Source: Bacteriovorax sp.
GTDB lineage: Bacteria; Bdellovibrionota; Bacteriovoracia; Bacteriovoracales; Bacteriovoracaceae
Direction of reading: 5' to 3'
Length of the DNA: 64,000 nt
NCBI GenBank assembly: GCA_014377485.1
Contig: JACMPM010000020.1
Span: 1-64,000 of the forward strand
Shown piece by piece: positions 9,544-56,450 of the stretch. Each line of letters opens with the position of its first letter. Positions within the stretch are counted from its first letter, which is position 1. The position numbers and the translations under genes are program-made. Below the pieces are notes generated by a model that worked only from the letters and a program-made list of their open reading frames with translations, was not told the origin of the DNA and did not search any database.

Positions 9544-10742
9544 CAAACTGCTCTCTTTCGAATGATATTAAATTTTTCGGCACCAGGGATATAGGGAATT
9601 TTAACGACACTTCCTGGTTTAGATTTTTCGAGACTCACACCCGAGAGGCTTCGAAGAAAATCCACTTTCAATTTTTCAGTCTGTCCCTTAAATGGCATAA
9701 CTTCTAAAATATCTCCGGGATGAAAAGCACTTTTTACGTCGACCAATAAATGCTTTCCAACACTCGCCTCTAAAACAATTCCTGAAACTACAAATTCATT
9801 ATCATCTTGTTCGCGGTTGTTATAAATAGAATCATCGCCTGCATAAATATCCAAACTACCTGTCGTGTAATCACGGTGAGAAACTTTTCTCAATTCTTCT
9901 TCCCATGAAATCATGTCAGATGAGAGAAAATTGCCATGACCTCTGTAGTAACGAAGTGCTTCTGAATAAACTTTAGAAATTGTCCCAGCGTAATGATGAC
10001 TTTTATTTCGTCCTTCAACTTTAAGTGAATCTATTCCTGCCTCTATAAATTCAGGCAGCATGCGAATGCCTTCCAGATCTTTTGAAGACATGAAATAAGC
10101 TTTTTTACTCTCCTTTGACTCGTTCTTAAAATCGATCGAATACTCAAATCGACAAGAATGAGCACAACCACCACGATTCGAATCGCGTCCTTGAGTATAA
10201 TTAGAAATTACACAATTTCCGGAATAAGACATACACATTGATCCGTGTACGAACATTTCAATTTCAAGGCCTGTGGCCTTCTTAATTTTGGCTGCTTCTT
10301 TAATCGTCACTTCGCGACCTAGCACAATTCGATGAGCTCCCATCTTTTGCCACAACTTTGCTGACTCAACATTTAAGCAACTTGCCTGAGTAGATAAATG
10401 TACGACTAGTTTAGAATGTTTTTGGATCGTACTGATAACTCCTAAATCAGATACAATTACGGCATCGACTTTAAGTTCTTCTAAGAGTCCTAAGAATTCT
10501 GGAAGCTCTTCCAAGTCTTTATCATGTAAAAAACTATTGAGAACGACATATACTTTGGACCCATGTGAGTGAGCAAACTCTACACCTTCAGTTAATTCTT
10601 CATAGGTAAAATTGTCGGAAGCTTGGCGTAGATCAAATTTTTGACCACCCAAATAGACTGCGTCAGCTCCGTATAAAACAGAGACTTTAAGCTTTTCTAA
10701 ACTTCCGGCCGGTGAAAGTAATTCAGGTGTCCAATGACTCAT
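9543..10742 (-). CDS. trhP: U32-family tRNA hydroxylation protein, TrhP/YrrO-like
   Basis: 399 residues from the ATG at 10742, which follows AAGGAA; the ATG 12 codons upstream has no site. Strong U32 features: ELLSPAGSLEKLKVSVLYGA, DAVYLGGQKFDLR, 'VHLSTQASCLN', the U32 signature MFVHGSMCMSYSGNCVISNY, and RGGCAHSCRFEY supplying the conserved Cys cluster. A C-terminal beta-barrel domain (about residues 315-395) includes HPGDILEVM. Family members with this layout (E. coli TrhP/YegQ, Bacillus TrhP2) act in tRNA U34 hydroxylation rather than proteolysis. It is translationally coupled to the TrhP1-like gene. RlhA is a related alternative but usually carries a longer C-terminal extension. Confidence 0.8.
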   Translation of the reverse strand: MSHWTPELLSPAGSLEKLKVSVLYGADAVYLGGQKFDLRQASDNFTYEELTEGVEFAHSHGSKVYVVLNSFLHDKDLEELPEFLGLLEELKVDAVIVSDLGVISTIQKHSKLVVHLSTQASCLNVESAKLWQKMGAHRIVLGREVTIKEAAKIKKATGLEIEMFVHGSMCMSYSGNCVISNYTQGRDSNRGGCAHSCRFEYSIDFKNESKESKKAYFMSSKDLEGIRMLPEFIEAGIDSLKVEGRNKSHHYAGTISKVYSEALRYYRGHGNFLSSDMISWEEELRKVSHRDYTTGSLDIYAGDDSIYNNREQDDNEFVVSGIVLEASVGKHLLVDVKSAFHPGDILEVMPFKGQTEKLKVDFLRSLSGVSLEKSKPGSVVKIPYIPGAEKFNIIRKRAV

Positions 10743-42429: not shown

Positions 42430-42774
42430 GGTTCTTCCTCAAAAATATTATAGCCCGAAGATCTATTCAGATTATCGGGGCTCAGTCCTATTATCTTGAG
42501 TTATTTCATCGGATAACTGTTTAAAGGTCGTATTCTCAAGGAGTTCGAAGAATATTTTAAAACCGCTTTAAAATCGCTGAAGCCTGTAAAAATGGGCAGA
42601 TGATCTCTATCACTGCCAACTCACAAACGCTCTAAGACTATGAAACCCATAAGCTAGTGATTATAAAATCTAACTAGACCCATCAAGTATTAAAATAAAA
42701 TCAATCAAAGACTTGAAATGCCGATAAATAAAAGGCCTGAAAGAATTAGGACTGCAATTTTAAAAAAGGAAGTA
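42430..42774. other. 345-base regulatory gap with hairpins upstream of the giant lipoprotein
   Basis: Holds no reading frame of note. Features: AGCCCGA...TCGGGGCT near 42453-42483 can form a bulged hairpin; a stem TTTTAAA/TTTAAAA near 42556-42574; GGCAG-A-TGAT-CTCT-ATCA-CTGCC (42595-42617), a hairpin with a single bulged A; and the sigma-28-like promoter at 42701-42727. On the minus strand, TCAA-N16-CCCGATAA near 42473-42500 could serve the small exported gene. A short untranslated RNA cannot be excluded. Confidence 0.5.
42701..42727 (+). promoter_or_regulatory. Sigma-28 (FliA)-like promoter for the giant lipoprotein gene
   Basis: TCAA (42701-42704), 15-base gap, GCCGATAA (42720-42727): the -10 box is a perfect match to the FliA consensus and the spacing matches TAAA-N15-GCCGATAA. 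It ends 47 bases before the chosen ATG. FliA promoters mark motile attack-phase genes in Bdellovibrio. Confidence 0.65.
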
Positions 42775-45700
42775 ATGAGAACTGAAAAAAAATTGAAACC
42801 AATTTTTTTGAAGTCATTATCAAAGTTGATAATGTTGAGCACTCTGGTGTTCATGCAAGCTTGTATGCCCACTCCATCAAACACTAGAAAAGCACTCTTA
42901 AGCAGTTCAAACAGCACCACAAAAACGGAAACGAAACTTCCAACATTTACGGAAGGAAATAATTTTATTCAAAATGGTGGAGTAGTCTACACTTCAGCAG
43001 TAAATTTTGATTTGAGTTTTGCAGACACTCTTCAATTGCGCGGGAAGGATGTCAATAGTTATATTAGAAATAACGGCATTCAAATTATTTCATGTCTTAC
43101 AGGTCGTTTTTCTGGCACCGTTAATCAAGTTAATATTTTAGCAGCAATTCCTCACTCCGTTTATAATTTTACAACGCTGACTCTTGAATACTACTACAGT
43201 ATCGCTCCGTCGGACGATGTAAGTAATAAAAACTTTTGTCAAAAAAGTGGTCTGATCAACAAACTGTTCGCTCTTTATCCACTTTTAACTCCAGTCTATA
43301 AAATGAGTGCGCTCTGTCCAGGTGGTGTTTGTGTTAGCAGTATTTACACCAGTCTGCCTTTGGAAATTTATAGTCAAAGTGGTTCAGCTCTAACTCAAAT
43401 TGGAACGACTCAATTAAGTTATAACATCACAAATAAACCAAATATCACAACACCTGTTGGTCAAACATGTATTGGAAAATCTGACTGTACAGCCATCGGA
43501 TATGACTGTTGCAGTTTAGGTCAATGTGTAAAAGACCTGGCCATCAAGCCTGGAGTTGACCAGATCTCTACAAATTATGTACAGGCCTTACAAGATATTT
43601 TAAATAATCCCAATCATATTTATAATTATCCTCAATATTATTATATTTGTTCAACTCCAGTAACCCAACCAGGAACGACTACTCCTGCAACAAACGCTGC
43701 CAATCAAGCGGCCACTCGTTTGAAAAATCTCACTGACCTTTATAATTGTACAACAAAGATTGAAGGTGAAATGGGAATTTGTACTGTAACTATTCCCAAT
43801 GCACATGCCGGTCTTCCCTATGTTAGTTATAGTGCTGGCGTAGACGATCGAAATTTTTCTAATACATATACAAATCAATCGAGTTCAAGCTACGTACCAA
43901 CTGCCAAAGAAGATCTTATTAGCATTCAAGAAATTTCTTATGGTGAAGTCACTCTTTTTAGTTATGATCAAATTACAAGCGAAGCAGTAGTGAGACCTGA
44001 TCCGTTTATTGTTTCCAGCTATCTAAGAGTTAACGGTCATCATAACGATGACAATGCAACTGGAGCTTCAATTTTAATAACGAATAGACCTTCCAGTGCC
44101 GTATCAAATGATTTAGTCATCAAATACCGCACAGATGCGAGTTGTTTTCAATTAAATTCAAATCTTGGAAAATGTGAAAAGTATTATATTCAAGGTCAGC
44201 AAAAAAGTGGTGATACAGTTATTCTCAATAGAAGAGGACGTGTAACAGATCACTACCCTGCCTCAAATATATTTAAACTTCCCTATTATGCCAGCACAAG
44301 TAAAACGATTGCGGTGGAAGTTGATGGAGTTACTCAACGCCAAGATGTCGACTGGCAATTAAATGCTGCTAGCCCTGCGAGCATTCAATTTTTATCGACT
44401 TCAAGCGGACTTAAAGTTTTTGATACCCAAAAAGTAAAAATTACATTTTTTGTAGATCTTACTATTAATCATGTCATGGATTCTAAGAATGCTGCCTTAT
44501 CAAAAATTAAAGATACTTGTCATTGCGCTGATTTAAATTGTGCCTTATCTCCAGTTAAAAATACGGCCGGAGCCATTACAGATTACGCTTGTGTTTATCC
44601 GGATCCATCTCCTGTCGTTCCTCCAATATCACAAAAAATATTCTTGAGTTCTAAAACGGTTCCAGTTCGCTATTACGATACGACGGGTACTTCTAAAGCA
44701 TCAGTAACTGGAGAAACACTTCCTCAGGAAGGGACAATCTTTTCTTATAGAAAAGATAATCTACTAAATCCAACTAATATGCCAGATATCATTAATCCAA
44801 TTGTTGGTGAAAATACTTATATTGGGTTTAATGAAATTTACGGATCATTGAGTTACGCCAATAACGCTGCAAAACCTGCCAAAGAAGTGGCGGTGACTAA
44901 AGGGAAAACTTATGACCTTTATGTCGATAGTGGAACTTATTCCAACTGTGTTCAGTGTGGAAATGACTATTACTCACAACTTAATAAACTTTTTCCACTC
45001 ACTCAATTTGGCGGCGGAGTTCTACCTCTTCAAGCACGTACAGATCGGGCACAGTTCAATGGAATTCGTGCCGATGATATGAGTTTTGGCCGCGCCTGTT
45101 TTGTTCCAGCAACAATGCTCCCTTTTTCTCATGCAATTGCTTCTGATCCACAAGAGCAACGACTCAATAGAATGCGTGCACAGCATTTTCTCTATGCCAA
45201 TGGTTACCAACACGACTGGTTTGGTTTTGACTACGGTGCTGTCATCGGATCGTTTGACGGTGTGAAATGGTTTGCGATTGGAACAAATAGAAGAATAAAA
45301 GCCGATAGTAATAAACTTTTTATTGCCGTGAATGGCCCATTTGGTGATCTCGCACTTGAGAGCACTTTTACTGTTACTATTAATGATGGCTCTCTAAATC
45401 CTGTTGGATCGAATATGGTTACAACTGATTTTGATTCAGATGGCGCCGAATGCCAAAAATTTCACCAATGCTCTACTGATAATGACTGTGCAACAACATT
45501 GGGTTGGGATTATGCCTGTGCAAACATTAACGAAATTACAACTTCGTGGCCGCGCTTTGATGATAATGCCAAAGAAATTCCAGACGCCCAAAGAGACGAT
45601 AATCGTTTCACTAGTATTTTAGCTAATGCTTCTTCAGGAAAACGCTGCGTATACCGCGGAAGAGGGGCTGCGTGTACTCAGAATTATCTATCGAACGCCA

Positions 45701-47895
45701 TTAACTTGAATTCAACATTCAACCAAACTCAAACTCAAACGTTTCATACATGCAGTGCTAATAATTATTGTCAGACTATCACAACGAATAACACGCTCAA
45801 TTCAAAATTCAATAATCGCATTGCCCGTTATGGGAAAGTTAGAACTGATGCAAGTTCTGACAGCTTTGGATTAGGAGTAAAAGTACCCGGCCGCCCTATG
45901 GAATTTAATGCGATCGAGCCGATGCGTTCTGAAACTGCGAGAAATCTTAATAGCAATAAAATGGCCGGTCTTTGTATTCCTGGGAGAACTCCTGAGTCAG
46001 ATACATTTGTAGGTCAAAACTCGACCACTCCTCCTGCTGAATATATGGGTGATAAAATATTAGGCATTGGAATGAGTTATAGAAAAAATACCCCAACTGC
46101 TGTTTCAACATATCTTTCATCATGCTCCATCATGGATAGCACTAATAATTACTTTTACGCAAAGGGTGATCCAAGCTCAAGCAATGCTGCGAATTCCGAA
46201 TTGAAATCAAGCTCTGGAACTCAAGCAATCTCGACTAATTCTCTAAATATTTTTAAATCTATTTTTGAAAATACAAAAAAAATAAGTTTTAGTATCTTCA
46301 CAAATAATACAACGGTATTAACGTCTCAAGTATTTACAGAAAACCGCTGTATGAGAGCTCCAGGAGCAAGTTGTTTCTCTGACCTGGATTGTGCTCCGTC
46401 AAAAATTATTGCGGACAAAATTAAAATGATTAGTGCCGTCGACACATCAATAGTTGGAGATCTTTTAAACGGCATCCCCGTCCAACTTAATAAATACGAA
46501 GTAAAATTCTGGCAGGAAGATCTGGTATGTTCTCAAACAACGGCCAAAAGCGATCCGACTTATAGCTCTTTCACCAACCGTTGTTGCCGAGAAGTTGGTA
46601 AAACCATCTCAATTGCAAACAGTGATTTAAATACTCCTATTTTAAATACTCAAGTTGCAGGTGTTGATATCGCAATTGACAACAAATACCGCTACTCTCG
46701 AGTGGCTACTGTGTATAAAGATCAAGTATCTGATCCTACCAATTTCCCTTCTCTTCACACCGCAATCAAAGATCAATGTACTGATCTGACAACTGCTGCT
46801 GGATGTGTCGATACATCTGTCTTAACCAATCAATTTAAAACTTTTTCTGCCTATGCAGAAAGAACCAGCTGTTCAGGTGATTGGATAAGAAATTTCGATA
46901 ATGGAAATCATAAATGGGACAGCACTCGCTTCCAAACTTTTAATCCTTCGATGTTTAAATGTATGAACTGGCTTCCTGGAGCTAATAACTGGTCTTGTGC
47001 TGGACTTGAAAAAGATGATCCGTCATGTTCATTAATTCAAACTTCACCTTTTTCCGGAAAAGCCAGAGGTGTTATGAATTACCTGGCAAAATTAGAGTTG
47101 ATGGGGATTCCGCAAATTGCTCTTGAGTCCCAGGATTATTTTAATACGACATCAGAAGGTGATCTCTCTTGTCGATCATTTCCAAGTGATCAAGGGGCCT
47201 GTTACCCTGGAAACCCTGATCCAGCTTGTTTGACTAGAAGTATTGGACCACAAACTAGTAATTCAAACAATTTTGCTTATCCTTCTGAGCTTTTTGCAAC
47301 GGGAAAAAGCCGCGAATATTTCGACAGTACACCTACAATCATGAAACAACTTTTTTCAGGTGCTGATGAATCAAATTTCCAAATAATGAAGAAAATATTT
47401 AAATCTGATGAAGTTGCAAGTTGCCTTCCTGCAGGGACAACCATGGCCGTTGGAGCTGATGTAAATCTTTGTTGTTCTGGATTTATCAATTCCAAAAATA
47501 ATAAATGTCAGCTGCCAGATTTCGTAGACGTGAGTATTTATACCAATCGTTATGTTTCTTCCGAAGCTAAAAAAATAAGCATCAATCTATTTGATCAAAA
47601 TGGTTATATCAAAGATCCTTCATATGTTGCTCAAATTGCTTGTGAAAAAAGTATGTGTGCTTCAGGAGTCTTGGCCTATGGTGTATTAATTTCTAAATTA
47701 AGAACACCGGGACAAGAAAATATCGACCAAAAACATTTTAGATTTATGCAGTCAACTACAGCTTCTGACGATCTCAATGGCCTCCTCACTCTTTACAATA
47801 AAGGCTTAAAACTCAATAACCATGCTTATTGTTTTCCTAGTGGTTCGAGTTCAACTAGTAATGCAGATTTAACAATTATTTCTTGTGGAAATTAA
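42775..47895 (+). CDS. Giant Cys-rich surface lipoprotein
   Basis: 1706 residues from the ATG at 42775, which follows AAGGA; the frame extends 19 codons upstream, but that part contains the promoter. N-terminal signal with Cys30 in FMQAC, a near-lipobox, implying lipid anchoring. The mature protein is beta-rich and has dozens of cysteines in clustered motifs such as CIGKSDCTAIGYDCCSLGQC, 'CSTDNDCATTLGWDYAC', CSADNYC-like spacing and CFSDLDCAPSKI, similar in spirit to small disulfide-knot (Dickkopf/WAP-like) modules. It probably forms a long extracellular fibre or receptor. No family recognised. A sigma-28-like promoter suggests expression in motile cells. Confidence 0.7.
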   Translation: MRTEKKLKPIFLKSLSKLIMLSTLVFMQACMPTPSNTRKALLSSSNSTTKTETKLPTFTEGNNFIQNGGVVYTSAVNFDLSFADTLQLRGKDVNSYIRNNGIQIISCLTGRFSGTVNQVNILAAIPHSVYNFTTLTLEYYYSIAPSDDVSNKNFCQKSGLINKLFALYPLLTPVYKMSALCPGGVCVSSIYTSLPLEIYSQSGSALTQIGTTQLSYNITNKPNITTPVGQTCIGKSDCTAIGYDCCSLGQCVKDLAIKPGVDQISTNYVQALQDILNNPNHIYNYPQYYYICSTPVTQPGTTTPATNAANQAATRLKNLTDLYNCTTKIEGEMGICTVTIPNAHAGLPYVSYSAGVDDRNFSNTYTNQSSSSYVPTAKEDLISIQEISYGEVTLFSYDQITSEAVVRPDPFIVSSYLRVNGHHNDDNATGASILITNRPSSAVSNDLVIKYRTDASCFQLNSNLGKCEKYYIQGQQKSGDTVILNRRGRVTDHYPASNIFKLPYYASTSKTIAVEVDGVTQRQDVDWQLNAASPASIQFLSTSSGLKVFDTQKVKITFFVDLTINHVMDSKNAALSKIKDTCHCADLNCALSPVKNTAGAITDYACVYPDPSPVVPPISQKIFLSSKTVPVRYYDTTGTSKASVTGETLPQEGTIFSYRKDNLLNPTNMPDIINPIVGENTYIGFNEIYGSLSYANNAAKPAKEVAVTKGKTYDLYVDSGTYSNCVQCGNDYYSQLNKLFPLTQFGGGVLPLQARTDRAQFNGIRADDMSFGRACFVPATMLPFSHAIASDPQEQRLNRMRAQHFLYANGYQHDWFGFDYGAVIGSFDGVKWFAIGTNRRIKADSNKLFIAVNGPFGDLALESTFTVTINDGSLNPVGSNMVTTDFDSDGAECQKFHQCSTDNDCATTLGWDYACANINEITTSWPRFDDNAKEIPDAQRDDNRFTSILANASSGKRCVYRGRGAACTQNYLSNAINLNSTFNQTQTQTFHTCSANNYCQTITTNNTLNSKFNNRIARYGKVRTDASSDSFGLGVKVPGRPMEFNAIEPMRSETARNLNSNKMAGLCIPGRTPESDTFVGQNSTTPPAEYMGDKILGIGMSYRKNTPTAVSTYLSSCSIMDSTNNYFYAKGDPSSSNAANSELKSSSGTQAISTNSLNIFKSIFENTKKISFSIFTNNTTVLTSQVFTENRCMRAPGASCFSDLDCAPSKIIADKIKMISAVDTSIVGDLLNGIPVQLNKYEVKFWQEDLVCSQTTAKSDPTYSSFTNRCCREVGKTISIANSDLNTPILNTQVAGVDIAIDNKYRYSRVATVYKDQVSDPTNFPSLHTAIKDQCTDLTTAAGCVDTSVLTNQFKTFSAYAERTSCSGDWIRNFDNGNHKWDSTRFQTFNPSMFKCMNWLPGANNWSCAGLEKDDPSCSLIQTSPFSGKARGVMNYLAKLELMGIPQIALESQDYFNTTSEGDLSCRSFPSDQGACYPGNPDPACLTRSIGPQTSNSNNFAYPSELFATGKSREYFDSTPTIMKQLFSGADESNFQIMKKIFKSDEVASCLPAGTTMAVGADVNLCCSGFINSKNNKCQLPDFVDVSIYTNRYVSSEAKKISINLFDQNGYIKDPSYVAQIACEKSMCASGVLAYGVLISKLRTPGQENIDQKHFRFMQSTTASDDLNGLLTLYNKGLKLNNHAYCFPSGSSSTSNADLTIISCGN

Positions 47896-47969: not shown

Positions 47970-48779
47970 ATGGAAGCAATTTATACATCTGTTATTTTAG
48001 GAATCGTTGAAGGCCTTACAGAATTCCTTCCAGTTTCGTCAACTGGTCACCTTATCATGGCAACGGATCTGCTTCACCTTGACCAAGAAAAGCTTGCTTC
48101 ATTCAATATCATTATCCAACTGGGTGCCATTTTAGCTGTCGTTTTTTTATACCATAAGCGTTTTCGTAATCTTTGTGATTTAGAAAAACTAAAATCTCTC
48201 AAAGACAATCTTGATCAAAAAGGATTGAATGCAATTCATATCGCAGTAGCGATCGTCCCTACTCTTGGTATTGGTTACTTTAGCCGCAAGTTTGTTAAAA
48301 CTCATCTTTTTAATCCCTATGTTGTGGTCTGCTCACTGGTCGTTGTCGGCGTTATCATGTTGATTGTCGAAAAAATTAAACCAAAAGCCACAGTAATAAC
48401 TGTAGATGAAATTACTTATAAGGATGCTTTTATCATTGGTATCTCACAGTGTTTTGCTCTGGTACCAGGAGTCTCTCGCTCTGGAGCGACAATGTTAACG
48501 GCCATGATGAGAAAAGTGGATGTTGTAACCGCGGCCGATTTCTCATTTTTAATTTCAGTGCCTGTAATTACGATCGCTACTGTCTATGAATTTCTCAAGG
48601 CCTATTCGAGCTTTAATGCCGCCGATGCCCTTCAACTCTTGGTAGGGTTTGTCGTTTCATTTATCGTTGCTCTGGCCGCCATTAATGGCTTCTTAGCAGT
48701 GTTAAAGAAGCTCTCGCTTGCTCCTTTTGCTATCTACCGAATTTTTGCAGGTCTTCTTTATTACTACTTTAGACTTTGA
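47970..48779 (+). CDS. uppP: Undecaprenyl-diphosphatase UppP/BacA
   Basis: 269 residues, polytopic inner-membrane protein that recycles undecaprenyl pyrophosphate for cell-wall synthesis and confers bacitracin resistance. Family motifs: GIVEGLTEFLPVSSTGHL, 'FNIIIQLGAILAVV', and 'CFALVPGVSRSGATMLTAM' with the catalytic Ser/Arg region. About eight membrane helices. AAGGA precedes the ATG. It sits between two large surface-protein genes without evident functional link. Confidence 0.95.
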   Translation: MEAIYTSVILGIVEGLTEFLPVSSTGHLIMATDLLHLDQEKLASFNIIIQLGAILAVVFLYHKRFRNLCDLEKLKSLKDNLDQKGLNAIHIAVAIVPTLGIGYFSRKFVKTHLFNPYVVVCSLVVVGVIMLIVEKIKPKATVITVDEITYKDAFIIGISQCFALVPGVSRSGATMLTAMMRKVDVVTAADFSFLISVPVITIATVYEFLKAYSSFNAADALQLLVGFVVSFIVALAAINGFLAVLKKLSLAPFAIYRIFAGLLYYYFRL

Positions 48780-49012: not shown

Positions 49013-52000
49013 ATGGCCTTTATGAAAAATCTCTCAAAAATTTTAGAATTAGTGACAAAAACTTTAAAAGTTTTGATGATTAACACAATCGTCTTCTCTC
49101 TGATTCAAATTCCATTTGTTTCTGAAACATTCGCCGCTACCTCTAAAAAATCCAACGGTGGTTTTGAGGCTCAAGACATTGTTAATTTGGCCAGTGGTGC
49201 TTTGGGTGTGTATTCAAACTATTTAGGCCAGAAACAACAAATGCTTCAACAGCAAATCACTTCTGCAAATAATCAAAAATTAATTGCACAATTAAGCCCT
49301 ACTTGCCGCAAAGCTGATGGGACTGCCTGTTATACAACTCCAGCTAAATTATTTCCTGAATGTACTCTGCCTGCCTCTATGTCAAACATGCCGGCCAATG
49401 CCTGTAATAATCCAACGCCGGAAGTTAATCAAATTAGCTCTATGATTACTTATGAATCTATCTCTCAAGGATGGATGAATTATTATGATCAAATGAGTAA
49501 CGAAGCTTCGAACTCTAGTTATGCTGTTGGACTCCGTTGTTTGGGTGATAAGCAAAAAGCAATGGACTCTCAATTAACTGAGATGGTTAATAGTCTTCAA
49601 CGTCTTCAGGATCGCTTGAATCAAGACAAACAAATTTTTCGCGATAATAATAAAAAATTATTAGAAGATATGAACACTGCCAACGATGAATTATTAGGTT
49701 CGTCGGGTGGTCTTAGTAAAAACAATCTCAATATAAAAACTCAAGACTTTGCTAAGTATTTTTCTCAAAGCTGTCTGTCTGTTATCGGAAAAGATGCTAT
49801 TAAATCCGGTTCAGCTAACGGCGGTCTCAGTGGAATCTTACAAGGACTAAGCTCTACAAATAAAGCAGCTAGCGATTTTAATTTAAATAAAAATGTTATT
49901 GAAGATGATGTCCGTCGTGAAGCAAGTAAAATTGCAACCTCAATCAATGGCAGTGGAATTGATGACTTCTTAAGTAATAGCAGTACTCAAAGCAATATCA
50001 AGTCGACAAGCTATCCAACTATAGAAACAACTGTTAAGAAACAAGCTGCCGAGCTCAATACAGCGAGAGCGCGAATCAATAAAGAATTATCCGCCCTGGG
50101 ATATACTCCTCCAGCTATGGATAAAAACTTTACAGTGGACATGAATGATTTCATGGCAGGCTCAGCAGATTTTTTCAAGAAAAAATATGTCAACGATTGT
50201 GTGACTGGTGCCTCGAGCGGAATAGCTATTCCTGTCAGTGATATACTAAATTCACTAGAACAAAAAAGTACAAATAGTGAAGGGACTGCAAGAAACGATT
50301 ATCGTGCAGCCCTTAAAAAAATTCTTGATTCTGATGCCATGATGGACGAAAAAATGGTAAGTATCAAGGACCTTCAATCTCAATATCCAGACATCACTAT
50401 TACATATAAAGACAGCACTCAATCAAGAATTACTGAAAGTCCTTACAACCTTTTCATGAAAACGATTGATAAGTGTCAGCAACGCTTCACTCAAGATGAT
50501 CAGTTTTCAAGCAAAGGCTCAAGCGGTGTTTCTTACCAGAAAAAAGTTGAGCGCGGACGAGCAGCACTTCAGGAACTAAAAAATCTTAACGATAGTTTTA
50601 GCTCTAAGATCACTCAGGCAATTACTGATCAAGTTCTAAACTGTAATGGCCAGGCATCAAAAGCCGGAAGTGATTGCAGTGAAGAATCATTAAAATCAAC
50701 TAGCGATAATTTTTGTGTGGCCCATGCCAGCTCTTGTGCTAACGATATTCAGGGTTGTTATGCTGAAGCCAACAATCAAGTTCAAACTAGAAAAACAAAA
50801 ATGGCAAATTTGGCAAAAACATATAATGCCAACGTATCGGCCATGATCACTCGCTCGAACACATTGTATGAACAACAAAAAGCAGCTGTGACAAATATCA
50901 CTCAAATGATTCAATCAAAATTTCCTGGAACTAATTTTGAAATTCCAAAAGATATGTTCGTCGCAATGCCTGAATTATCAAAAGATACTTACGGCGTAGA
51001 AATGGCAGGTAACGGAGACACTAAATCTTTCCTCGAGGGCGAGAATTCAATGCCTGGGAAAATCGACAAACTAAAATTAGTCTTTCAAAAACAAAGAGAC
51101 GCTGTAAAAAAAGCAACTGATGATTATATTGGTCTTCAAAAAACGGCAATGGAAAAAGAAAGAGGTCGTTGGGAGAAATTGGCCGGTGATTGTAAAAGTG
51201 CAATCGACAAGTCTTCAAGTGAACTTGCAAAAGCAAATAACGAAGGACTAAAAAAACAGGGTGAAGAAGACCAAAAAGTTGCTAAATTTTGTAAAAAATA
51301 TAATAGTATCAGCCAAAACCCATTAGGTGCTTGCGGCAAGGCCAAAGATCTATCAGATATCGCAGATCAAGTTTCAGCTCGATTAAGTAATCAATCCCTC
51401 GCACTTTCTGAGCAATACGCTTCAGCATGTGATGGATTGAATAATCAAAACGATGATCTTCCACCTCAGTGTGATGGAGAGCAAAAAGGGGCAACTAAGG
51501 CTTATTGTGATAGTAAGATGAAAGCAGCAAGTAAAAAATCTGGAGCTGATGCAGGTTCTTCTTCTTCAGGCCCTAAGGTTAAAAGGCTAACGTTCACTTC
51601 ACTCTGTGGATCTGGATCATCACTAAAAAGTGATTCTGATTTTATTGCAGCAGCGTCTAAAAAACTTGCTTCAGATGATCAAGCGACAATTAAAGAAATT
51701 TCTTCTTTTGATGGAGTTGTAAAAAAATCAGAAGATATTAATGATTCCAATTTTTTCTCTAACATTTCATCAATGATTTCGTCAGAAACTTCTGGATCAG
51801 TGTGTGAGAAATTAAAATCAGTTGCTAAAGCTGATGAAGACTTAGACCCGGCATCTATTGAAAAATCAAGTGCGGCTAAAGAAAAAGATTTTGTTAGTAC
51901 TCAAAAAAGTGCTGAATTAAAATTGGCCAATAAAGATATATTGCCCGAAGAAAGAGCACGCCAACAGGGGATTTATGATTCTGCTGCAAGTGATATTAAA

Positions 52001-52264
52001 AGATTATCTACTGAAAAAGATAGCAAGCTTGCTTTTGCAGAAAACAACAAAAAACTAAAATCATATTTTAATGACCTGGCATCAGTCACTGCGACTCCTG
52101 ACCCTACTGCGTCCAGTACAAAACTTACTGAAATAAAAAACATCGGCGAACAGATGACTGGTCCGTGCGATATGCAAAGTAATTCTAATATAACTAAAAA
52201 TACGGGCTTCGACTTAAGCGGTTTCGACGCTGGCGTACTCGGCGCTAATTCACGGAGCAAATAG
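49013..52264 (+). CDS. Very large secreted helical protein of unknown function
   Basis: 1083 residues. Long N-terminal signal (hydrophobic core about residues 20-42, VLMINTIVFSLIQIPFVSETFAA). The mature protein is predominantly helical and coiled-coil-like (MLQQQITSANNQKL, MVNSLQRLQDRLNQDKQIFR, VAKFCKKYNSISQNPL) with paired cysteines spread through it (e.g. CRKADGTAC, CSEESLKS, CDGLNNQNDDLPPQC). Ser/Asn/Lys-rich, no domain recognised. Likely an exported structural protein. Start uncertain: ATG at 49013 or 49022, both with weak sites. Probably cotranscribed with the metalloprotease gene 13 bases downstream. Confidence 0.65.
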   Translation: MAFMKNLSKILELVTKTLKVLMINTIVFSLIQIPFVSETFAATSKKSNGGFEAQDIVNLASGALGVYSNYLGQKQQMLQQQITSANNQKLIAQLSPTCRKADGTACYTTPAKLFPECTLPASMSNMPANACNNPTPEVNQISSMITYESISQGWMNYYDQMSNEASNSSYAVGLRCLGDKQKAMDSQLTEMVNSLQRLQDRLNQDKQIFRDNNKKLLEDMNTANDELLGSSGGLSKNNLNIKTQDFAKYFSQSCLSVIGKDAIKSGSANGGLSGILQGLSSTNKAASDFNLNKNVIEDDVRREASKIATSINGSGIDDFLSNSSTQSNIKSTSYPTIETTVKKQAAELNTARARINKELSALGYTPPAMDKNFTVDMNDFMAGSADFFKKKYVNDCVTGASSGIAIPVSDILNSLEQKSTNSEGTARNDYRAALKKILDSDAMMDEKMVSIKDLQSQYPDITITYKDSTQSRITESPYNLFMKTIDKCQQRFTQDDQFSSKGSSGVSYQKKVERGRAALQELKNLNDSFSSKITQAITDQVLNCNGQASKAGSDCSEESLKSTSDNFCVAHASSCANDIQGCYAEANNQVQTRKTKMANLAKTYNANVSAMITRSNTLYEQQKAAVTNITQMIQSKFPGTNFEIPKDMFVAMPELSKDTYGVEMAGNGDTKSFLEGENSMPGKIDKLKLVFQKQRDAVKKATDDYIGLQKTAMEKERGRWEKLAGDCKSAIDKSSSELAKANNEGLKKQGEEDQKVAKFCKKYNSISQNPLGACGKAKDLSDIADQVSARLSNQSLALSEQYASACDGLNNQNDDLPPQCDGEQKGATKAYCDSKMKAASKKSGADAGSSSSGPKVKRLTFTSLCGSGSSLKSDSDFIAAASKKLASDDQATIKEISSFDGVVKKSEDINDSNFFSNISSMISSETSGSVCEKLKSVAKADEDLDPASIEKSSAAKEKDFVSTQKSAELKLANKDILPEERARQQGIYDSAASDIKRLSTEKDSKLAFAENNKKLKSYFNDLASVTATPDPTASSTKLTEIKNIGEQMTGPCDMQSNSNITKNTGFDLSGFDAGVLGANSRSK

Positions 52265-52277
52265 GTAGTGAAATGTT

Positions 52278-54659
52278 ATGAAAAAAGAAGTTAAAACTTC
52301 ATTATTCAATTTAACACTCATAGCACTAGCATCTCTAGTGCTATCGGCGTGTGTGCCTAGTATAGGAAATAATGCTCGTTCAAGAGCAGCAAGTGCGATC
52401 ACAGGAAGTGCTAATGTTGGATTGTATCAGGGACGGGTACTTGCTGATAATCCAATTATACTTTCAAAAAATGCCAATTTATCAGATTCATATGATCTCA
52501 ATAAACTTTTGAGTACCGTTCCGATTACTACAAATTCATTTTTAAAAGGAAATGCCTCTTGCCAAGGCCTGGATTATTGTTTTGAAGTTCGGGCAACTAA
52601 AGTTGATCCTTCTCCCCTGCAAACTGCAACTGGTAAGTGGAGCTACAACGCTAACTCCAGTGAATTTTTACAAGTTAATACTTTTTATCATTTAAATATG
52701 GTTTCAGATTTATTTTTTACAAATCTATCTCATAGTTTTAGCCGCGCTTATCTGGGAAATTCTGCAACAACCTTGTACGACACTTCACTACCAAAAAGTA
52801 TTCAAACAGATACAAATGTTTTTAAACTAATTACACAGCCGTTAATTATCTACGGTGATTGTAATGAACCGGATGCTGCTAATTTTAACAATACAACTCA
52901 ATCCATTTGTTTGGGATATGTAAGCAGTAATCCAACAGTGAAATGGGCACAGGATAATACTGCTATCTATCATGAGACTGGGCACTTTTTCCAAAAACTG
53001 CAACTCAACCTAAGAAACCCATTGATTGGCCCTAGGGTTAATATGGGAACACTTTTTTACGATGAAGCAGGATCAATTGGCGAAGGACTTTCTGATTATT
53101 ATAGTTATTTTGTCAATGGTAGGACCCATTTTGCTGAGTGGGCAGCTGGCAGATTTTCAAATGCATCGAGACCTATGTCGGAAAGAGACCCTGCTCATGT
53201 GGCAGGTATTTCAACTGATCCTGATCAACGTTTAAGTTATCCTCAGTTTCTTGATTACAATCCTTACGAACCAAGCTTTCCCACTGAAGACGTACATTAT
53301 TCGGGAATGATTATTTCACATTACCTAGTCGCACTCACAGAAGATCTTGAGGATAAATGTGTAATGTCCAGAAGAGATGCTTCAGATTTAGTTATTCACT
53401 TAGTAAGTGAGACCCTCGCTGAATATGGTGACTTGTCATCAACAGGAACACAAAGTGTTTCTTCAAGCTTAATTTTAAGAGATAAAATTAATTTAAATTC
53501 ATCACATTCTTCTGATTGGTATAAAATTGTCAACCCAATCACTTACCGATCTTTTATGCAAACATTTGCTAAAAATTTGATGAACAATTTATCAAACACT
53601 ATAGCAAGGCCGGCACTCAATCGTTGCAATAACGGTATTTACACCAGAGACCAAATTGAATCTCTTATAGATCAATACGGATTGCTGCTTTTTAGAACGT
53701 ATAATGAAAATCGAAATCTTTCTACGTCTGCTGGAACACGCGACAATACACCCGTTAATGCTATTAATAGAAAAAAATCAGTTCTTATTTCAAAAAATCT
53801 TTTGATACTTGATCCTACAACAAGTGCTAGCTCTGCTTTTGTAATCGACACAAGATCTGAGATCAAAAAAGCAATAACTTCAGGAAATTTAACTTTATCA
53901 GCTCAAACTCCAAGTGATTTATCATTTAATAACGACAACGGAAGAATGAGCCCCGGCGAAGTTGTCGCTGTGGCATTAAATCTTTATAACAATTCAAATA
54001 CACCAATGGGTGGTGTTCAAATTCTTGCCAACGATTGGAATCATGCTTCTCTTGATCCGGTAACAGGCTACTTAAAACCATGTCAGTTTCCTACTTCAAT
54101 GTCTAACGACCAGTGGCCTCTCATATCAGAAGGCGGAGTACCATGCACCAAAACAGCAGCAACGGCAAGCACTGACTTTGCTCCAGTTTGCTTTATTCAA
54201 TCAAATGAAACAACGTCGACTAAATGGGTTTCACAAAAAGAATTCCAAAATAAAATGGCGTTGGATTCATCTTTCTGTCTAGATCCAACAAAGCCAAACG
54301 AATGTTTTATTAGGGCGATAAAAGGTGCTGATCAAGCCATCTATTCTCGTATCAATTCAAAATCAACTTGGGGAAAAACACTGGCCAATCCAGATACAGG
54401 TAAGGCGCCTATTCTCAGCGGTGCAAATGTTATTTTATTTGAAGTTTCTAAACATGTACCTCCAGGAACACTTGTAGATTGTAGGTTAAGAGTACGCTTC
54501 ACTAACTGTGAAGACTGCTACCACGATGCAAATCCACTTTTAAGAAGTGATCATGTTACTAACCCGATTACAAGGACGGATTACGATTATACCGATACAG
54601 ATTATAACGGACCTCGTCCTTTTAAGATTATTCATTTACAGATTCCAATTATTGATTAA
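52278..54659 (+). CDS. Gluzincin metalloprotease lipoprotein (thermolysin/M36-like)
   Basis: 793 residues. Signal peptide with lipobox LSAC (Cys25). Catalytic zinc site HETGH (His232, Glu233, His236), followed after 33 residues by E269-G-L-S-D273 (GEGLSDYYS), the Glu-x3-Asp third-ligand motif of M4/M36 thermolysin-like enzymes. Later 'DVHYSGMIISHYLVALT' holds a candidate catalytic His. The C-terminal 250 residues are beta-rich with several cysteines. No propeptide (FTP/PepSY) is present between signal and catalytic domain, unusual for this clan; a PepSY-like protein follows immediately. Predicted surface-anchored protease. Confidence 0.75.
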   Translation: MKKEVKTSLFNLTLIALASLVLSACVPSIGNNARSRAASAITGSANVGLYQGRVLADNPIILSKNANLSDSYDLNKLLSTVPITTNSFLKGNASCQGLDYCFEVRATKVDPSPLQTATGKWSYNANSSEFLQVNTFYHLNMVSDLFFTNLSHSFSRAYLGNSATTLYDTSLPKSIQTDTNVFKLITQPLIIYGDCNEPDAANFNNTTQSICLGYVSSNPTVKWAQDNTAIYHETGHFFQKLQLNLRNPLIGPRVNMGTLFYDEAGSIGEGLSDYYSYFVNGRTHFAEWAAGRFSNASRPMSERDPAHVAGISTDPDQRLSYPQFLDYNPYEPSFPTEDVHYSGMIISHYLVALTEDLEDKCVMSRRDASDLVIHLVSETLAEYGDLSSTGTQSVSSSLILRDKINLNSSHSSDWYKIVNPITYRSFMQTFAKNLMNNLSNTIARPALNRCNNGIYTRDQIESLIDQYGLLLFRTYNENRNLSTSAGTRDNTPVNAINRKKSVLISKNLLILDPTTSASSAFVIDTRSEIKKAITSGNLTLSAQTPSDLSFNNDNGRMSPGEVVAVALNLYNNSNTPMGGVQILANDWNHASLDPVTGYLKPCQFPTSMSNDQWPLISEGGVPCTKTAATASTDFAPVCFIQSNETTSTKWVSQKEFQNKMALDSSFCLDPTKPNECFIRAIKGADQAIYSRINSKSTWGKTLANPDTGKAPILSGANVILFEVSKHVPPGTLVDCRLRVRFTNCEDCYHDANPLLRSDHVTNPITRTDYDYTDTDYNGPRPFKIIHLQIPIID

Positions 54660-54666
54660 TTAAATT

Positions 54667-55350
54667 ATGAAAAAAATTTTGTTATTTATATTTTCAACAT
54701 TTATAGCTTTATCAATAGCCATTTATAGTAAAAGGTCTTCTGAGGTATTCGCTAGTAAATCAAATCCAACATGGAAGACTTTTGTTAAAAATTCTAATCT
54801 TGAAGTTTCTGGGCATAAGACAACCCAAAAGGAACTTGAAGCAGCTCGCGTTCCCACTCCTAAGAGAGCAATTGCTGAAGAAAATAATCAGTTTGCAAAT
54901 GATGAACGCATTAGCTTTGAACAACAGGCAAAAATTATAAAAGACAATCATTTTCTTATCCGTGAAGAACGAGTTTTAATTGGCGATATCCAAAAAAGAA
55001 ATTATCAAGATGAAGATGTCCCCCTAGAAATGTTGAACAAAATAAATCCAAATTGGAAAGATATTTTAGGCCATGAACTCTTGCGTTTTCAGGATGATGA
55101 TACGAAAGTCATGATCAAAGAAGAATTTTCTATAATCCAAATTCAAAACGGAAAAGGCCGATATGTTGAACAAGTTATTGTGACTTATGTTTTAAAAGAT
55201 GGTGCAATAAACAGTTATCGTGCTTTAGTTGATTCTGAAACAGGTTCTGTCACGGATACTTGGGATAAAACAATTTCCGAAAATTATAAAAGAGAGAGAG
55301 CAAACCTAAGTCTGCCCTCTGAAAATAATAGTGGAATTATAACAAGGTAA
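54667..55350 (+). CDS. Exported PepSY-like protein paired with the metalloprotease
   Basis: 227 residues. N-terminal signal or anchor (residues 2-20). Residues 85-227 contain FTP/PepSY-like features: 'RFQDDDTKVMIKEEFSIIQI' and, near the end, 'YRALVDSETGSVTDTWDKT', which matches the closing strand of PepSY domains in thermolysin propeptides. It begins 8 bases after the metalloprotease stop. In M4/M36 enzymes this module folds and inhibits the protease in cis; here it may act in trans. The 3' end overlaps the converging barrel gene by 14 bases. Confidence 0.6.
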   Translation: MKKILLFIFSTFIALSIAIYSKRSSEVFASKSNPTWKTFVKNSNLEVSGHKTTQKELEAARVPTPKRAIAEENNQFANDERISFEQQAKIIKDNHFLIREERVLIGDIQKRNYQDEDVPLEMLNKINPNWKDILGHELLRFQDDDTKVMIKEEFSIIQIQNGKGRYVEQVIVTYVLKDGAINSYRALVDSETGSVTDTWDKTISENYKRERANLSLPSENNSGIITR

Positions 55351-55909
55351 ATGGCAAACTCACGCCTAAAACTATTTCATGATTAGAAATATCTCCGCCT
55401 GATACAGCAGCTGGCTTTGAAGTAAATACAACATTTCTATATATCAGGTTTAAACTCAAGAACGGAAGTGCTGTAAACCCTACCCCCAACTCTTTAGTGT
55501 TCCCTTTAAATTCTGATCCTGACGGTGTTTTTCCCGAAGAATCTTGGTCTTTTGCCGTGTTTGAAAAATAATATGCGCCCCAAAATCTCAAAAGGATTGG
55601 AAGATTATAACCAACGAATACTCCAATTTCTCCACGATCGAATTTATCATCTCCACCTGGAGTCTGAGTCCATGTGTATGTGGAGGCCGTGTAATCCAAT
55701 CCGACCATTAAACCTAAATATTGCCCACCAAATCTTAAACCTAGTTCTGGATTTGTGTATTTATACTCAACCCCTGAGGTAGTTCCGCCACCTGAAATAT
55801 TATAACCAATATGCGGCTCTATTAACAAACTGGCATTAGCAGTAATGGATGTAAGGGCCGCTATCGCCAAAACGCCTAATACGATTAAAGAATTCTTTAT
55901 ATGTTCCAT
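55337..55909 (-). CDS. Small outer-membrane beta-barrel protein
   Basis: 190 residues. Signal peptide 1-26 (LAIAALTSITANA). The mature part consists of alternating amphipathic strands with aromatic belts (LLIEPHIGYNISGG, 'PELGLRFGGQYLGLMVGLDY', GEIGVFVGYNLPILLRFWGAYYF) and ends in a hydrophobic strand HEIVLGVSLPFTLL. Size fits an eight-stranded OmpA/OmpW-like barrel. AAGGAGGAA precedes the ATG. Confidence 0.75.
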   Translation of the reverse strand: MEHIKNSLIVLGVLAIAALTSITANASLLIEPHIGYNISGGGTTSGVEYKYTNPELGLRFGGQYLGLMVGLDYTASTYTWTQTPGGDDKFDRGEIGVFVGYNLPILLRFWGAYYFSNTAKDQDSSGKTPSGSEFKGNTKELGVGFTALPFLSLNLIYRNVVFTSKPAAVSGGDISNHEIVLGVSLPFTLL

Positions 55910-55982: not shown

Positions 55983-56450
55983 ATGAAAACATTCAATACA
56001 TCGGCATCCCTAATAATAACAATTTTTGCAAGTTTTAATGCCTATGCAATTAATTACGAAGTCATCGGACCTTGTTCTGAAAAAGCTGTGCACTCAGGGA
56101 CATTCAATGTGGTCGATTTAAAAGTAAGTGTTGGTCAAACCAGCGTGGCCATTTTTGATCAGAACAAAATTCCTTACATTGGCAATGAAAGTGGATTCAA
56201 TTCTATAGTTAATACTCCAACTGGATTAGATTCAATTGAAGTCCTCTCTGACACTAAAATGCGGGCTTATGGCTGGTGTTTTTCAGTGAATGATATCCGG
56301 CCAGATGTTATAGCGGGTGAATATTTATTTACCAGCAACTCTGACAAATTAGTCTGGTTCTATGCCTATTCAACTTATGATAAAGGCGAATGGCTTGATT
56401 ATTGTGTACCTTCTTATAAGATAAAAGCGGCACAATTTTGCACAAAATAG
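55983..56450 (+). CDS. Small secreted protein, DUF4430-like
   Basis: 155 residues with a signal peptide (1-22). Three to four cysteines and a pattern 'MRAYGWCFSVNDIRPDVIAG', KLVWFYAYSTYDKGEWLDYC, which resembles the strand arrangement of DUF4430/transcobalamin-C-like domains. Assignment is by pattern only. Stands alone between an AT-rich divergent promoter region and a gene with its own promoter. Confidence 0.5.
   Translation: MKTFNTSASLIITIFASFNAYAINYEVIGPCSEKAVHSGTFNVVDLKVSVGQTSVAIFDQNKIPYIGNESGFNSIVNTPTGLDSIEVLSDTKMRAYGWCFSVNDIRPDVIAGEYLFTSNSDKLVWFYAYSTYDKGEWLDYCVPSYKIKAAQFCTK

Follow-up and report, generated by a model that had tools for sequence, protein, structure and literature searches.

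In Pseudomonas savastanoi, the M4 protease RhpP lacks a propeptide and is inhibited by RhpC, which is encoded 20 bp downstream (PMC6490944). The metallopeptidase CpaA of Acinetobacter has a chaperone, CpaB, that is anchored in the membrane and encoded directly downstream (PMC4713064), and in Bacillus spores a separate PepSY protein, YpeB, is needed for the hydrolase SleB (PMC6660665). Here we describe a three-gene locus of a Bacteriovorax sp. (assembly GCA_014377485.1) that can be compared with each of these systems. It lies in the first 64,000 nucleotides of contig JACMPM010000020.1, referred to below as the window; the source genome belongs to the Bacteriovoracaceae, and the closest named loci are those of Bacteriovorax sp. 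and Bacteriovoracaceae bacteria. The genes, here called GIANT, PROT and PEPSY, are all on the + strand and span positions 49013-55350 with intergenic gaps of 13 and 7 nt, and the coordinates of their open reading frames are exactly those given in a preliminary description of the window. From sequence and structural models we consider it rather probable that they form an operon for a split M4/M36-type protease, in which PEPSY serves as a membrane-tethered propeptide that acts in trans as folding helper and inhibitor of PROT. Such a logic is workable, because the published RhpP-RhpC, CpaA-CpaB and YpeB-SleB systems provide precedents. In the literature, of which our coverage was incomplete, we found neither an account of this operon nor a natural case of a PepSY propeptide acting in trans on an M4/M36 protease.

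A metallopeptidase and its PepSY-like neighbour

PROT (52278-54659, +; 793 aa) is predicted to be an M4/M36-like (gluzincin) zinc metallopeptidase and lipoprotein with a C-terminal Cys-containing region. Sequence and homolog alignment place its lipoprotein signal and lipobox (LSAC, Cys25) at 52278-52352. The zinc site extends over 52965-53096, with the HETGH motif (aa 232-236) at 52971-52985, E269 at 53082-53084 and D273 at 53094-53096. Cys25, H232, E233, H236, E269 and D273 are invariant in all 40 homologs, and H340 is conserved in at least 90% of them. Judged by these residues, PROT carries the whole gluzincin active-site set and is presumably an active enzyme: the HExxH motif, the ExxxD Glu ligand and the downstream active-site His that define M4 and M36 members are all present. 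Pfam detects M4_C in 22 of the 40 members (best 1.4e-4) and M36 in 5, while PROT of the window itself falls under the cut-off (M36, 16.7 of 23.3 bits). Profile comparison with the M36-like paralogs of the family by hhalign is far stronger (prob 98.7, E 1.8e-16).

These comparisons also bear on the propeptide. Some genomes of the family additionally encode single-chain relatives in which an FTP-PepSY propeptide precedes the protease. The hhalign alignment pairs residue 41 of PROT with template residue 226, and because it begins just after the propeptide of these single-chain paralogs and leaves PROT no residues for one, PROT is devoid of a propeptide; only 206 residues separate Cys25 from the HExxH motif. 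PROT is thus a variant member, lacking the same-chain N-terminal FTP-PepSY propeptide that is standard for M4/M36. The invariant Cys25, the zinc motifs and the start of the alignment agree with its preliminary description as a thermolysin-like lipoprotein without propeptide. Sequence searches of the PDB with the family profiles of GIANT, PROT and PEPSY returned nothing meaningful.

PEPSY (54667-55350, +) is a 227-aa protein that the open reading frame and the AlphaFold model suggest to be bitopic, with an N-terminal membrane anchor and a C-terminal PepSY-like domain. Of 39 homologs, 38 have a hydrophobic N-terminal segment that starts with basic residues, and 33 are without a signal-peptidase I motif, so that a membrane anchor is the simplest reading of this segment; the window protein has possible AxA-type motifs and may be cleaved there. 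The AlphaFold model, built with 39 sequences (pLDDT 85.2), consists of an N-terminal helix followed by a C-terminal helix and four strands. The PepSY-like domain, delimited by hhalign and Foldseek, corresponds to positions 55036-55278 (aa 124-204, with a helix at 130-139 and the four strands). When the model was compared with 350,542 PDB chains using Foldseek, the highest-ranking match was 3nqz_A, the vibriolysin MCP-02 propeptide (prob 0.54, E 0.3), and the fourth-ranked match was another entry of the same protein, a resemblance that is weak by E-value but specific. In hhalign, residues 124-204 align to the PepSY half of a paralog propeptide (locus L182, residues ~121-190), in which Pfam places PepSY at 152-184. 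The score of 27.7 exceeds the 18.6 reached by the best of 153 controls (100 column-shuffled and 53 unrelated profiles).

Several observations weigh against a trans propeptide. The hhalign probability of the PEPSY-propeptide alignment is 18%, and the Pfam PepSY model (PF03413) has no match in PEPSY of the window. Among the 39 homologs a single one reaches E 0.051, with otherwise scattered weak matches, and nothing in the window's genome matches PF03413. Because of the hhalign probability and the Foldseek E-value, homology of PEPSY to a PepSY propeptide is no more than suggestive. No counterpart of the FTP half of a propeptide was recognised. Finally, paralogs of PEPSY (E ~1e-18 to 1e-24) occur in genera g7 and g9 at three loci (L173, L174 and L175), none of them near PROT or another gene whose product has an HExxH motif, and given this position the PEPSY domain may have other partners. 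The preliminary proposal of a PepSY-like third protein thus finds backing in profile and fold comparisons, including the structure prediction that had been set beforehand as its check, but not in a Pfam match of the window protein. The further proposal that this protein helps PROT to fold or inhibits it in trans is the best-supported reading, given the PepSY similarity and the pairing with PROT described below, rather than a demonstrated one.

A core operon of the Bacteriovoracaceae

A search of 97 related genomes recovered each of the three proteins family-wide, and the other families of the phylum yielded no match for any of them. PROT was found by profile search in 121 of 129 genomes of the order, almost always in single copy; three of these matches (G016, G024 and G053) are weak and paralog-like, which brings the count to ~118 of 129. 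The GIANT profile, searched against 291 genomes of the phylum, matched 95 genomes of the family and, outside it, gave four marginal matches (E 3e-4 to 1e-3), none of them convincing. Gene order was compared in 40 loci from 33 genera, and the succession GIANT, PROT, PEPSY on one strand is kept in 38; the exceptions are G041, with PEPSY elsewhere in the genome, and G052, with GIANT on another contig. Among 44 same-strand loci, the gap between PROT and PEPSY has a median of 3 nt, falls within -8 to +26 nt in 43 and is a 1-nt overlap in 13, a spacing as would be expected of translational coupling. Given this constancy of order and the median gap, the arrangement is not due to chance. Order and spacing have been kept although the proteins have diverged to 15-40% identity across the 33 genera. 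The three genes are a core operon of the Bacteriovoracaceae, and the co-occurrence in a conserved neighbourhood anticipated by the preliminary description extends across the whole family.

Within the operon, PROT and PEPSY are closely paired. Wherever a complete PROT locus was examined, PEPSY is adjacent or, in G041, elsewhere in the genome; this includes G014, in which PEPSY first seemed absent and lies directly after PROT. In G041, PEPSY occupies positions 9797-10504 of locus L170 in an unrelated neighbourhood while PROT is still beside GIANT, a natural unlinked pair. Four genera (g32, g80, g4 and g41; 7 genomes) have GIANT but no PROT, and PEPSY is missing from them too, save for weak matches that cover just its N-terminal anchor region. 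Assembly gaps were ruled out as the cause of this absence, GIANT being flanked by unrelated genes there, whereas the absence of PROT from G006 was put down to such a gap, the contig ending after GIANT. The PROT-less genera form one side of a branch in the GIANT tree (SH-aLRT 95). Since the GIANT-only genera lack both genes and fall together in this way, PROT and PEPSY were gained or lost together, probably once, beside a pre-existing GIANT gene.

GIANT and the alternative readings

GIANT (49013-52264, +; 1083 aa) is, according to its open reading frame, alignments and AlphaFold model, an exported, coiled-coil-rich protein with an invariant set of Cys residues. The model is nearly all helix (pLDDT 77.8, pTM 0.40), with helices at 174-232, 569-636 and 680-768 (up to 89 residues) and a signal-like helix at the N terminus, in keeping with the secreted helical protein of 1083 residues foreseen in the preliminary description. 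Among 51 homologs, 13 positions are invariant and 12 of these are Cys; that a dozen of the 22 Cys residues are invariant despite identities down to 15% to the window protein is a pattern typical of a disulfide-bonded exported protein. GIANT has no sequence match in Pfam, NCBIfam or the PDB. Its Foldseek matches (SMC and PrgA; best PrgA, E 1.8e-3, TM 0.08) reflect generic coiled coil and were rejected as evidence of function. Because it is family-wide and present also where PROT and PEPSY are missing, GIANT is an old gene of the family and more than an accessory to the protease.

The preliminary description suggested that GIANT may be a substrate or scaffold. One possible but doubtful explanation of the operon is that it is a dedicated substrate, whose long and variable C-terminal tail would be trimmed by PROT to yield a mature surface fibre while PEPSY delays cleavage. 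This explanation is compatible with PEPSY acting on PROT in trans and would add a substrate to it. The genes are adjacent in one tight cluster, and where PROT is present the tail beyond C806 almost always measures 170-475 aa, vs 92-126 aa in PROT-less genomes, a hint of interaction or processing. However, the tail is short in two genomes with PROT (123 and 127 aa), and as the PROT-less genomes form a single clade, the difference amounts effectively to one evolutionary event. The GIANT and PROT distance trees remain correlated once controls are applied (partial r 0.55), and the mirror-tree correlations suggest a GIANT-PROT-PEPSY chain; we give them little weight because the control tree, that of UppP, correlates poorly with the others (r 0.06-0.32). 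The unlinking of GIANT from PROT in G052 likewise argues against a dedicated substrate.

An unlikely alternative concerns PEPSY itself: instead of a steric chaperone or inhibitor, it could be a partner with a PepSY fold by which the complex is controlled or localised, for example through stabilisation of GIANT or PROT, much as YpeB stabilises SleB. The PepSY domains of YpeB are required for SleB stability, without direct contact having been seen (PMC6660665), and a propeptide role does not account for the linker block (W-x-T, R-x-PAS) conserved in the N-terminal part of PEPSY. Yet the similarity of PEPSY is specifically to a protease propeptide, and PEPSY pairs with PROT and not with GIANT, being absent wherever PROT is absent and GIANT remains. 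Least probable of all is an operon of convenience, in which envelope proteins are co-expressed in one growth phase and do not interact physically: the unlinked PEPSY of G041 and GIANT of G052 would fit it, but the order and near-overlapping spacing kept over 33 genera in spite of the divergence, and the joint presence or absence of PROT and PEPSY, speak against it.

We therefore favour PEPSY as a membrane-tethered trans propeptide of PROT. PROT would be exported by the Sec pathway and lipidated at Cys25, while the N-terminal helix of PEPSY, as the sequence suggests, would hold it in the inner membrane and leave the PepSY-like domain in the periplasm. There, PEPSY would take on for PROT in trans the job that a cis propeptide leaves to its PepSY half, aiding the folding of the catalytic domain and blocking the active site until sorting has brought PROT to its destination, probably the outer membrane or the surface. 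GIANT, more speculatively, could be a large disulfide-stabilised helical exported protein that serves as a structural partner in the envelope or at the surface and is processed by PROT or acts beside it. A more far-reaching version, which we hold only tentatively, is that a split thermolysin/fungalysin-type protease, its propeptide now an inner-membrane chaperone-inhibitor, matures GIANT as part of a family-specific surface system needed for predation.

If PEPSY does act in this way, the operon would present a propeptide that works in trans as a separate gene and has sequence-traceable single-chain relatives in the same family, and one could dissect how a dedicated chaperone of a protease, anchored in the membrane, arose. 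The operon is near-universal, single-copy and uncharacterised, an envelope operon in a family that includes bacterial predators, and is a clear knockout target for what sets the cell surface of the Bacteriovoracaceae apart.

Gene neighbourhood and comparison with known systems

A constant neighbour of the operon is UppP (BacA), located at 47970-48779 in the window. In most of the family's loci (28 ORFs matched), UppP and the operon are adjoined by a lipoprotein, of 1725 aa in the window (42718-47895), for which neither Pfam nor NCBIfam has a match. In other genera (loci L101-L130) UppP is divergent, and a membrane protein of 500-840 aa, c0, lies between UppP and GIANT; it is divergent from GIANT in most genera, contains an FHA domain in some members and appears RDD-like by eye. 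As a component of the system c0 was dropped, there being no clear ortholog in the window's genome. Downstream, a small predicted outer-membrane-like protein (55337-55909, -) is convergent with PEPSY, overlaps its end by 14 nt and is kept in the genus and in some other genera. It is followed at 55983-56450 by an exported 155-aa protein with borderline similarity to DUF4430 (23.3 of 23.8 bits). A promoter scan was at chance level (20 found vs 20.2 expected).

Among known systems, RhpP-RhpC resembles the operon in combining a propeptide-less protease with a specific inhibitor or chaperone gene immediately downstream, whereas PEPSY appears membrane-anchored and propeptide-like and PROT would be exported as a lipoprotein. 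CpaA-CpaB likewise comprises an exported metallopeptidase and a dedicated chaperone with one N-terminal transmembrane (TM) helix, encoded immediately downstream; CpaA, however, belongs to family M72 and is a type II secretion substrate, and CpaB is assigned an SRPBCC-type domain, not PepSY. The lipase-specific foldases (Lif/LipH) are membrane-anchored steric chaperones whose genes adjoin those of their enzymes, but their client is a lipase and their fold differs. PEPSY shares the layout of Lif and CpaB, with a predicted single N-terminal TM helix, a periplasmic C-terminal domain and a gene adjoining that of the putative client; among the Pfam families listed it has no lipase-chaperone or SRPBCC-type match, and the likeness is one of analogy only. 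In YpeB-SleB, a separate PepSY-domain protein, with PepSY domains modelled on the vibriolysin propeptide, controls a hydrolase, although SleB is a cortex-lytic enzyme and not a protease. With vibriolysin MCP-02, thermolysin and fungalysin, PROT shares the HExxH and ExxxD motifs, the downstream His and a PepSY-like module available to the protease; it differs from them as a predicted lipoprotein without cis propeptide, whose PepSY-like module would be a separate, membrane-anchored protein.
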